From NCBI GenBank assembly GCA_020629835.1, contig JAHDCO010000003.1, positions 97,852-161,851 of the forward strand: DNA of 64,000 bases, written 5' to 3'. This DNA is from Granulosicoccaceae bacterium (GTDB lineage Bacteria; Pseudomonadota; Gammaproteobacteria; Granulosicoccales; Granulosicoccaceae). Within the stretch, counting starts at the first letter, position 1; every line of letters begins with the position of its first letter. The notes beneath the pieces are model-generated. The model was given only the letters and a program-made list of their open reading frames with translations. It was not told the DNA's origin and did no database searches. The position numbers and the translations under genes were made by a program. Of the stretch, positions 33,298 through 36,086 are shown one piece after another.

Positions 33298-33813
33298 GTG
33301 AGTCAACCACACTACATCGTTAGCACTCTGGGTCTGGGCTCGTTATCGATCATGCCCAAGCCTGATGTAACCGATTCACCTTCGGCCTTTTTCGCATCAC
33401 TACGCAGCTCAGGTGTTACGCATATTCTGTCCTTACTCAGTGAACAGGACATAGCCAAACTCAAATTAGAACTTGAAAGCCAATGGTGTGAAAACGAGGG
33501 CATACACTTCAGCCACTTTCCTATTGTCGATTATTCAGTACCCGAATCGTCTTCAGAATTTTTAGATAAAGCGAAGGTATTGCACGAGGCTATTTCATCC
33601 GGTCAACACTGGCTAATTCATTGCCACGGAGGAATCGGTCGATCGGGCATGATGGCAGTCGCCATTTTGATTCAGGAGGGTTATACCCCGGCTGAGGCAA
33701 TCAAAAAAGTATCCAGCGCGCGCGGCGTACCGGTTCCGGATACCGATGTGCAAAAGGAATTTCTATTGAATCTAAAACTGCCCCAGAACACTGGGGACGG
33801 CTTTTTCTGTTAG
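33298..33813 (+). CDS. Dual-specificity / tyrosine phosphatase-like protein, C-terminus altered by an insertion
   Basis: A 171-residue cysteine phosphatase with the active-site loop HCHGGIGRSG (Cys109, Arg115) and a likely general acid Asp78 in VDYSVP. Substrates may be phosphotyrosine proteins or small molecules. It starts at GTG 28 bases after the anchor gene. From position 33774 the coding sequence runs into the left end of the IS1-like element, so the last 13 residues, about LPQNTGDGFFC onward, are supplied by the element and the native end is lost. The catalytic domain is complete, so the protein may still work. Confidence 0.8.
   Translation: MSQPHYIVSTLGLGSLSIMPKPDVTDSPSAFFASLRSSGVTHILSLLSEQDIAKLKLELESQWCENEGIHFSHFPIVDYSVPESSSEFLDKAKVLHEAISSGQHWLIHCHGGIGRSGMMAVAILIQEGYTPAEAIKKVSSARGVPVPDTDVQKEFLLNLKLPQNTGDGFFC
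33774..33796. repeat. Left terminal inverted repeat of the IS1-like element
   Basis: AAAACTGCCCCAG, AACA, CTGGGG. It lies inside the 3' end of the phosphatase reading frame. The CCCCAG/CTGGGG stem is followed by ACGGC and five T, so it could also act as a transcription stop in the plus direction. Confidence 0.75.
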
Positions 33814-33846
33814 GGTGTTTGTTCCAACAAATTAGCAGAGGTTCGC

Positions 33847-34770
33847 ATGGACGCGACCACACAATGCCCGCGCTGCGATGCGCCCAGACGATCGCTTGTT
33901 CGTGACGGCTTCTATCATAGGGCCGACGATTCAAAATCCATTCAGCGCATCCGCTGCAAAGACTGCGGCAAGAAATTCTCTAACGCGACCTTCACACCCA
34001 CCTATAGGCAGAAACGCCGGCGCATAAACGAAACGATTCGATTTTGCCTGGCCAGCAACATGTGTCCACGCGACATTGCGGAATTGGTGGGAGTGAATAT
34101 CAAAACTGTCGCGGCACGGTTAATCTGGCTGGCTGAGCGTTCTCGGGAGAAAAATCAACGAAAGCTTCAGGCCTACCTTGATGTACATGGGCCCGTAAAA
34201 ACCGTGCAGTTCGATGACCTACTCACGTTTGAGCACACCAACTGCAAACCGTTGACGGTGCCATTGGCTGTCATTGATGGCGCCCGAATACCCTTGGGGT
34301 TTAAAGTCGCCTCAATCCCTGCTTTTGGCCGTCTGGCGGCAATTGCAAGGAAACGTTATGGCAAGCGTGCCGACCATAGCATCCAGGCTCGAAATGAATT
34401 ATTTGAAGAGCTAAGAGCGATTCTGCCGCCAGAGGTTCACTTCAAAATAGACGGCCACAAACACTATCCCCGATTGATCAAACAGTATTTTCCTCAGGCT
34501 ACCCACAGCGTGCACATCAGTGATCGGGGCTGCGTGGTGGGTCAAGGAGAGTTAAAGAAAACCCGGTTCGACCCGTTGTTCTCGGTGAACCATTCGTTTG
34601 CCAACATCCGTGCGAAAGTCAACCGTTTAAATCGTCGGACATGGTGCACAACAAAACGGCCAGATCGACTGGCTGATCACATCGATGTTTATATTGACGT
34701 GCTGTGTGATCGATTAGAAAGCGATCGCAAAAAACAATGCCGGCGTGCAAACCAATCCTTAATTCGATGA
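33847..34770 (+). CDS. IS1-family-like transposase (zinc ribbon, HTH, DDE-type catalytic domain)
   Basis: A 307-residue single-frame transposase. An N-terminal zinc ribbon (CPRC, residues 7-10; CKDC, 37-40) is followed by a helix-turn-helix (CPRDIAELVGVNIKTVAARL) and a catalytic domain with QFDDLL, KIDGHKHYPRLIK and the IS1-like end NIRAKVNRLNRRTWCTTKRP. Classical IS1 needs a frameshift between InsA and InsB; here the two parts are one reading frame, as in some IS1 relatives. No premature stop is seen, so it may be active. Clear inverted repeats bracket it. Confidence 0.82.
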   Translation: MDATTQCPRCDAPRRSLVRDGFYHRADDSKSIQRIRCKDCGKKFSNATFTPTYRQKRRRINETIRFCLASNMCPRDIAELVGVNIKTVAARLIWLAERSREKNQRKLQAYLDVHGPVKTVQFDDLLTFEHTNCKPLTVPLAVIDGARIPLGFKVASIPAFGRLAAIARKRYGKRADHSIQARNELFEELRAILPPEVHFKIDGHKHYPRLIKQYFPQATHSVHISDRGCVVGQGELKKTRFDPLFSVNHSFANIRAKVNRLNRRTWCTTKRPDRLADHIDVYIDVLCDRLESDRKKQCRRANQSLIR

Positions 34771-34786
34771 TTATTGACCTAGTTAG

Positions 34787-34809
34787 CCCCAGTCAACTGG
34801 GGCAGTTTT
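34787..34809. repeat. Right terminal inverted repeat of the IS1-like element
   Basis: CCCCAG, TCAA, CTGGGGCAGTTTT: a 6-bp stem extended by G-C at its base, followed by TTTT. It could terminate the transposase transcript. Its last base is shared with the stop codon of the convergent HDOD gene. Confidence 0.75.
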
Positions 34810-36086
34810 CAGCCGGCTTTTAGCATTTGTTGCGTATTAACAATCTTCGTGGTCGCGGCGCGCATGATTTCACCTGGGTTCTTTAAGTCGATACCGGCTT
34901 GTTGCAAACGCCTGGCGAGCAATAAGTTATCAACGCTTGGAATACTGCTTTGCTCAGACTCTGGCATCTCCGCTTGAATGATAAGCAGCGAAGCGGTAAC
35001 CAGATCCGTGTAGGTGATTTCACCACTGTGGTTACGATACCAATCACGGGCTTTATAGCTGGACTCAATATAGCTCTCGGGGAAATCCCAACTGGCGAGC
35101 ACCCATCCATTCAGCACCGTTCGTAGGTTTTCAATAGTAGATGTTAGCGTTGCGATGTCTTCAAACTTATCAGCGAACTTATTGGCGTGTGTCAGCACTA
35201 ACAACTCACCAATATCAGACATCATGGCAACGAGTGCTGCTTGCTCTCCCTTCAGATCAGGAATTGATCCAGAAAGTACCTGAGCGATGGCCGCCGATAA
35301 GGTCGTGCGCTGATGGAAGCGCTTATAACGTTGTGCAATAGCTTCATTGGCAGGCACGATAGTGTTCGACTTCAGTAACTCCACCATATTCAACTTGGTG
35401 TCTTCTACACCTAACCTGGAGATTGCACCGCGTACACTGTGCGCAGCATCAGAACCACCCGCATCAGCGCGGTTAGTAATCTTTAGGATATGTGCGGTCA
35501 AGCCTGGATCGGTCAGCATCACTTCGGCCAGCTCAGGCACGGCGTTCACACCGTCCACATTCATCAGGATCTTCTTGGCTGCTTCGCTGTAGGTAGCCAG
35601 CTGCAACTTGTTAGAAGCCATGGTCTCAATGATGTCATCCAACAACAGATTGTCATGTTCGGTTGTCTGCACATCGATGACATGAATGGCATTCTTTTGC
35701 TGTTCGCTAAGCAGAATATTAATTTGCTCACGTCCAAACTTCACCACTTTGGCAACGGCTGAAGTCTTGGCCAAGGTGTAGGCTGTTTTATCCTGGAATA
35801 AAGGCTTGAGTGCATCCGGTGTACGAGCGGTAACGGTGCCTACCTCTTCCTTACCGTTGTACAGTTGCAAAGAACCTTCTACAAGGTACATCAACCAACG
35901 GTTTGCAGCTTCTGGCTGTACCGGATCGTTGCGTTGCACGTGAACCAACTTGGCTGTCTTACACAGCGCAGCACGATTACTTTCATTCAATTCATTCACT
36001 GGCGATACGTTGCTGGCCGCCTGCAGCACCAGTTCGTAATTTTCATCAGTACTTGCCACTGATGCGGTGTTGTCTTTTTTAAGCAC
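34809..36086 (-). CDS. HDOD-domain protein with N-terminal cyclic-nucleotide-binding-like domain
   Basis: A 425-residue regulatory protein. The N-terminal part (about 25-135; LVHVQRNDPVQPEAANRWLM and LVEGSLQLYNG) resembles a cNMP-binding beta barrel. The middle and C-terminal part (about 165-400) is an HDOD domain, an HD-related fold without the full metal set, with LTDPGLTAHILKITNRA as the typical helical start. Such proteins act in signalling, often with cyclic nucleotides or two-component systems. The right end of the IS1-like element touches its stop codon, but the frame is intact. Its target is unknown. Confidence 0.85.
   Translation of the reverse strand: MLKKDNTASVASTDENYELVLQAASNVSPVNELNESNRAALCKTAKLVHVQRNDPVQPEAANRWLMYLVEGSLQLYNGKEEVGTVTARTPDALKPLFQDKTAYTLAKTSAVAKVVKFGREQINILLSEQQKNAIHVIDVQTTEHDNLLLDDIIETMASNKLQLATYSEAAKKILMNVDGVNAVPELAEVMLTDPGLTAHILKITNRADAGGSDAAHSVRGAISRLGVEDTKLNMVELLKSNTIVPANEAIAQRYKRFHQRTTLSAAIAQVLSGSIPDLKGEQAALVAMMSDIGELLVLTHANKFADKFEDIATLTSTIENLRTVLNGWVLASWDFPESYIESSYKARDWYRNHSGEITYTDLVTASLLIIQAEMPESEQSSIPSVDNLLLARRLQQAGIDLKNPGEIMRAATTKIVNTQQMLKAG

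Follow-up and report, generated by a model that had tools for sequence, protein, structure and literature searches.

The window, by which we mean the whole stretch of 64,000 nucleotides that was analysed, carries a complete insertion sequence between a dual-specificity-phosphatase-like gene and an HDOD-domain gene (Table 1). The two terminal arms of the element are 23 nt each, 87% complementary (20/23) and 990 nt apart, and CCCCAG-4 nt-CTGGGG was found in both of them, in agreement with an earlier note on this DNA that had described 23-base ends with 20 identical positions and a stem in each. That note had also stated that the boundaries meet both neighbouring genes and that no target duplication is visible, and both observations were confirmed. 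The phosphatase frame extends 36 nt into the left end of the element, the HDOD stop is the complement of 34809-34811, with the last base of the right end forming part of it, and no target duplication was found around the window copy.

Table 1. Positions of the element, its parts and its neighbours within the window
Feature	Position	Strand	Remarks
Complete insertion sequence, about 1.03 kb	33774..34809	+	Boundaries common to diverged same-genome copies and to relatives in other phyla
Left terminal inverted repeat AAAACTGCCCCAGAACACTGGGG	33774..33796	+	Contains stem 33781-33796, followed by a T run (terminator-like)
Right terminal inverted repeat	34787..34809	-	Stem GCCCCAG/CTGGGGC at 34786-34803
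AACTGCCCC motif	element end		Linear motif distinct from the stem
Transposase, 307 aa, single frame	33847..34770	+	Zinc ribbon, HTH, DDE/RNase-H fold (predicted); invariant D123, D202, GQGE235LK, N248-H249
Left 9-bp target footprint	33765..33773	+	Inside the phosphatase frame; -12..-4 from ACTG; family-wide flank signature R(-11) / not-G(-5)
Right 9-bp target footprint	34810..34818	-	In the last HDOD codons; sequence differs from the left footprint
Dual-specificity-phosphatase-like neighbour gene	33298..33813	+	Last codons and stop come from the element
HDOD-domain neighbour gene	34809..36086	-	C-terminus MLKAG* as in relative G021; stop abuts the right end

Copies and distribution of the element

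Because diverged copies in the same genome carry the same ends, the boundaries of the window element are real. The window genome (G000, 149 contigs) holds full-length or nearly full-length copies at 83, 75 and 74% nucleotide identity, which match the window element from the first base of its left end and whose ends agree with it, and additionally contains incomplete copies located at contig edges, as well as relatives that are more distant, at 42% protein identity. A scan of the whole genome with the end pattern returned 10 sites compared to 0 for the reversed control pattern. The earlier note had proposed searching genomes with the transposase and both ends, and this search yielded diverged copies with the same ends at unrelated sites. 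Together with the one intact 307-aa frame, these copies bear out its description of an IS1-like mobile element with a single-frame transposase. A resident gene that is no longer mobile and is flanked by terminators has next to no chance of being the correct explanation. The left hairpin and its T run do look like an intrinsic terminator, but this reading is refuted by the multiple copies, which lie at unrelated sites with common ends, and it is further opposed by orthologous sites that are unoccupied.

Among 115 relatives, the element is carried by 22 genomes, all of them from one family and there confined to two genera; a single genome holds up to 20 matches, many of which are partial. The named loci belong to uncultured Granulosicoccaceae and to Granulosicoccus, with many others in Bdellovibrionota (Bdellovibrionales, Bacteriovoracaceae and Oligoflexia) and some in Fibrobacteria. 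A survey of 369 gammaproteobacterial genomes located the element in the window's genus only, and no relative was found in the plasmids, phages and viral contigs searched. The genus has few transposases of other types: 12 genomes yielded 17 matches to rve and 3 to DDE_Tnp_1.

Transposase, ends and family placement

The window protein combines a CPxC/CxxC zinc ribbon with a helix-turn-helix region. All 32 aligned members of the lineage match the NCBIfam IS1 model (best 1.1e-14), but the window protein reaches only 31.9 bits with this model (P0001) against a cut-off of 100 and thus stays below the threshold for IS1 membership. No Pfam catalytic-domain model is matched by several of the 32 members, and among the Pfam matches listed for them DDE_Tnp_IS1595 is absent and the zinc ribbon alone appears, in 3 members. 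A match to an ISL3 transposase covers residues 31-105 only, with 17.4 bits against a cut-off of 180, and is therefore not a whole-length match. The AlphaFold model (mean pLDDT 85.8) has a DDE/RNase-H fold, for which the nearest solved structures are the ISCth4 transposase and retroviral intasomes and integrases; a PDB sequence search with the transposase returned no match. D123 and D202 are invariant, as are N248, which is located on a helix, and E235 of GQGELK, which is located in a low-confidence loop of the model. We take N248 to occupy the position of the catalytic E of IS1, based on an alignment made by eye; either N248 or E235 may complete the active site.

Judged by its model matches and its predicted fold, the transposase is a member of the IS1/IS1595 superfamily. 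IS1 itself uses two frames joined by a frameshift, makes target duplications of 8-9 (10) bp and has ends with a GGnnnTG-type consensus; single-frame IS1 members exist in ISfinder. The element resembles IS1 (InsAB') in its N-terminal zinc ribbon and HTH, in the near-9-bp duplication of those copies that have one, and presumably in a C-terminal block, SVNHSFANIRAKVNRLNRRTW in the window, which we aligned with a similar 20-residue block of IS1. It differs from IS1 in its single 307-aa frame without a frameshift, in its AACTG[CG]CCC ends in place of the GGnnnTG type, in the N at the apparent position of the last catalytic E, in the sub-threshold NCBIfam score, and in that most copies lack a duplication and are placed at stop codons.

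With the IS1595 family (IS1016 group), the element shares a single transposase gene and the IS1/IS1595 zinc domain, which is matched by 17 of the 32 members. The IS1016-type ends GGGGCTGTACTAGA of ISApl4 (PMC12561309) and the ends AAAACTGCCCCAG of the element have the CTG-Y-N-C-Y-AG spacing in common. Features of the IS1595 family are ends that start with GG and 8-bp duplications (PMC8101967, PMC12561309), whereas the ends analysed here lack the initial GG, no 8-bp duplication rule applies and the DDE_Tnp_IS1595 domain is absent from the listed Pfam matches. The element works in the manner of an IS1/IS1595-type DDE element, but because several defining features of each family fail, the lineage was filed as a member of neither IS1 nor IS1595, and it deserves a group of its own within the superfamily. 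A search of the available literature for ISMhu11 or Granulosicoccus transposases found nothing relevant.

The earlier note had further suggested that the ends are perhaps recognised as hairpins, and this part of it did not hold. Folding of the ends as single strands (+ strand) gave z-scores of -3.1 and -3.4, and the window copy and its subfamily carry a stable hairpin at each end, but strong hairpins were found in only 12 of 64 left and 10 of 64 right ends overall, and covariation of the end-stem pairs was not above that of shuffles. The conserved end feature is linear instead, consisting of AACTG[CG]CCC, which is kept across phyla, and a second block near TG.TG. Because hairpins sit in few subfamilies and the stem pairs show no covariation, we reject recognition of hairpins, and consider single-strand or structure-recognising transposition to be extremely improbable; the predicted fold, which is DDE/RNase-H and not the HUH fold of the tyrosine transposases of IS200/IS605, elements with hairpin ends and no duplication, also argues against it. 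The left stem of the window copy, which together with its T run resembles an intrinsic terminator, could possibly have an insulating role or terminate transcription of the neighbouring gene, and not serve as a recognition signal.

Two further observations concern the ends. A 38-bp remnant in the window genome (L059, G000:C133:18336-18373) consists of a left end plus CAGTT between two convergent stops and is apparently a bare hairpin terminator. At one right end (L101, G012:C22) and two left ends (L070 and L072), extra partial end copies lie beside the true end, as if insertions recur there.

Joints at stop codons and target duplications

The earlier note had described the contact of the ends with both neighbouring genes in the window, but not that such contact is family-wide. 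A convergent gene context was found for 33 of the 57 copies with both neighbours callable and for 12 of 14 copies in a second, separately fetched set; in the pooled data, 45/71 copies were convergent compared to 41/250 background gene pairs (16%) in the same sequences (p about 1e-18). With one crude common procedure, 2/12 other IS in the genus were convergent compared to 46/77 for this lineage (p 0.01). To place the joints relative to stop codons, we used the 105 ends met by a gene frame that is open 30 bp before the element, with the other two frames at the same joints as the control. The gene-frame stop was located within -5..+1 of the conserved core ACTG at 65 of these ends (62%) compared to 21 of 210 other frames (10%; p 9e-22), with same-genome copies not being fully independent in this count or in those of the gene context. 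Because the other frames stop there in 21/210 only, A-rich ends by themselves are insufficient to account for the stops.

The host groups with gene-end placement are marine Granulosicoccaceae and relatives of predatory bacteria. When we compared the genes at six loci (L001, L061, L067, L115, L117 and L124) with their orthologues by reading the printed tails, the genes that stop at the joint were found to end within a few residues of these orthologues. The exception among the compared orthologues is the window phosphatase, whose tail is lost and whose frame runs into the element. The spacing left over at occupied sites did not differ significantly from background convergent gaps (p 0.13) with crude ORF calls, because simple ORF calling produces many false overlaps.

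With the boundary placed at ACTG, 61 copies were scanned for target duplications. Clear duplications of 9, 10, 10 and 14 bp were present in 4 of them and the remainder was at chance level, while a match of at least 6/9, as expected of decayed duplications, was found in 12 of the 61 compared to 2.2 expected. Both flanks share a weak palindromic signature, with a purine at -11 and, at -5, a pyrimidine or at any rate a base other than G, which was detected in 88/122 flanks compared to 5-41 at other offsets and is present in two independent taxonomic groups. Of the 4 duplications, 3 have the same centre as this signature, which lies 8 bp before ACTG, and the fourth (L174), located in a T run, is shifted from it by one base. 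The lineage is capable of producing a duplication. In the simplest interpretation, the enzyme cuts with an approximately 9-bp stagger, but the two ends of most copies were joined to different targets. When the left flank was compared with the reverse-complemented right flank of the same copy as a test for hairpin targets, no excess over other copies was observed.

In G024, two copies (L070 and L135, G024:C24:38700-41900) lie head to tail. Because the same TTAAGCAAGCCAG stands after each right end, either the insertion of the second copy produced a duplication of 13-14 bp or the unit as a whole underwent duplication. In the same genome, several left ends (L125, L126, L128, L130 and L133) have runs of at least 4 G (up to nine) no more than about 50 bp away.

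Unoccupied sites and possible replacement of gene-end DNA

Empty sites in relatives, which the earlier note had named as a way to check the boundaries, were found as orthologous unoccupied sites, and less intergenic DNA is present at the occupied ones where the two can be aligned. In all comparisons at four loci the occupied site is shorter, with 7 bp between the stops compared to 26 bp in relative G021 (L067), an alignable gap of 40 bp compared to 63 bp in G011 (L124), 69 and 80 bp compared to 96 and 98 bp (L133), and 89 and 161 bp compared to 130 and 237 bp (L117). The proposed loss of DNA at occupied sites is based on comparison with these relatives, whose intergenic DNA has diverged. A further locus, L118, was withdrawn as a sign of a large deletion; because two relatives hold different DNA between the same genes, gain is as likely there as loss.

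At the window locus, G021 and G008 have the gene order phosphatase - aquaporin Z - HDOD, whereas G000 lacks the aquaporin gene and has the element in its place; another aquaporin (62%) is encoded elsewhere in G000. Because G000 is far more similar to G021 than to G008 (82 and 66% HDOD identity, respectively), loss of the aquaporin gene in G000 is the simpler history. However, the phosphatases of the window and of G021 share only 40% identity (40-44% among all three genomes) and the upstream neighbours are not syntenic, so that a larger rearrangement may be involved at this site.

As a rule, insertion sequences integrate at widely spread positions and create a short duplication, and adjacent deletions are a known habit of IS1. 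The reading that we favour with moderate confidence, as one joint statement, is that the element is an autonomous DDE-type insertion sequence of a lineage filed in neither IS1 nor IS1595 and that its copies are replacements of gene-end DNA by a mechanism that we infer. Each end of a typical copy would be joined to its own target and the DNA between the two targets would be lost, either by adjacent deletion or by two-target joining, which would be why a duplication is not seen. At the window, the lost segment would have held the aquaporin gene. Adjacent deletion is an established reason for missing duplications: in a long-term E. coli evolution experiment, duplications accompanied 69/69 IS insertions without a large deletion and 0/14 insertions with deletions (PMC11708052).

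An ordinary IS1-like insertion with a 9-bp duplication that was later lost by decay or recombination between copies, with selection purging insertions away from gene ends, is possible but appears somewhat unlikely. Some duplications survive, the many copies per genome ease recombination, a tandem pair exists in G024, and other natural IS are likewise without duplications once recombination or deletion has occurred (PMC11708052). However, duplications are absent from near-identical, recent copies in G024 too, which lie directly against stops, and selection alone would scatter the joints across the whole gap, whereas the stops pile up at -5..+1. Synteny across the element at several sites, by which both flanks belong together, argues against this reading as well. 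Assembly artefacts, with contigs joined through collapsed repeats, are a very unlikely cause of the missing duplications: most of the assemblies are metagenomic and several copies lie at contig edges, but no full-length copy in the genome is closer to the window copy than 83% identity, the flanks are adjacent at orthologous unoccupied sites, and two copies on a 3.26-Mb contig (L168 and L171) lack duplications as well.

Because adjacent deletion alone leaves the stop-codon precision unexplained, the replacement of gene-end DNA would need either directed targeting or strong selection. Termination of transcription or convergent transcription, for example, may guide the transposase to gene ends; alternatively, very strong selection may filter the insertions of an enzyme with weak selectivity. 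The wider proposition of a DDE transposase that targets gene ends generally and swaps the DNA between two stops for the element, using two separate targets and not the two strands of one staggered cut, is put forward as a speculation that we hold to be distinctly unlikely.

Tn7 at glmS and group IIC introns after terminators use gene 3′ ends as safe sites where little damage is done. Some IS are reported to target REP palindromes (PMC1525189). The lineage resembles all three in its insertion at gene 3′ ends but differs from them because no common sequence or hairpin marks its sites, many different genes are involved, and stop codons adjoin the element at each of its two ends. A lineage that meets stops on both sides, mostly without a duplication, would show a low-harm way of spreading and would tie target choice to gene ends with no need for a specific att site. 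The element would supply ready-made terminators and cause small gene losses between convergent genes.

Three sites deserve mention in their own right. The same convergent pair in two relatives (L239 and L240, G014:C140 and G009:C40) encloses quite different cargo genes and forms an insertion hot spot; one of the two holds a transposase fragment of this lineage. Between the neighbours of the L061 site in another relative (L194, G025:C32), a 63-bp convergent gap looks like a mini-element in which both degraded ends are kept, and full elements occupy this gene pair in G000 and G003. An unoccupied site in G021 (L195, G021:C4:151800-153400) has a perfect 10-bp inverted repeat, GAGCTTCTAG/CTAGAAGCTC, one arm of which is the end of the neighbouring gene.
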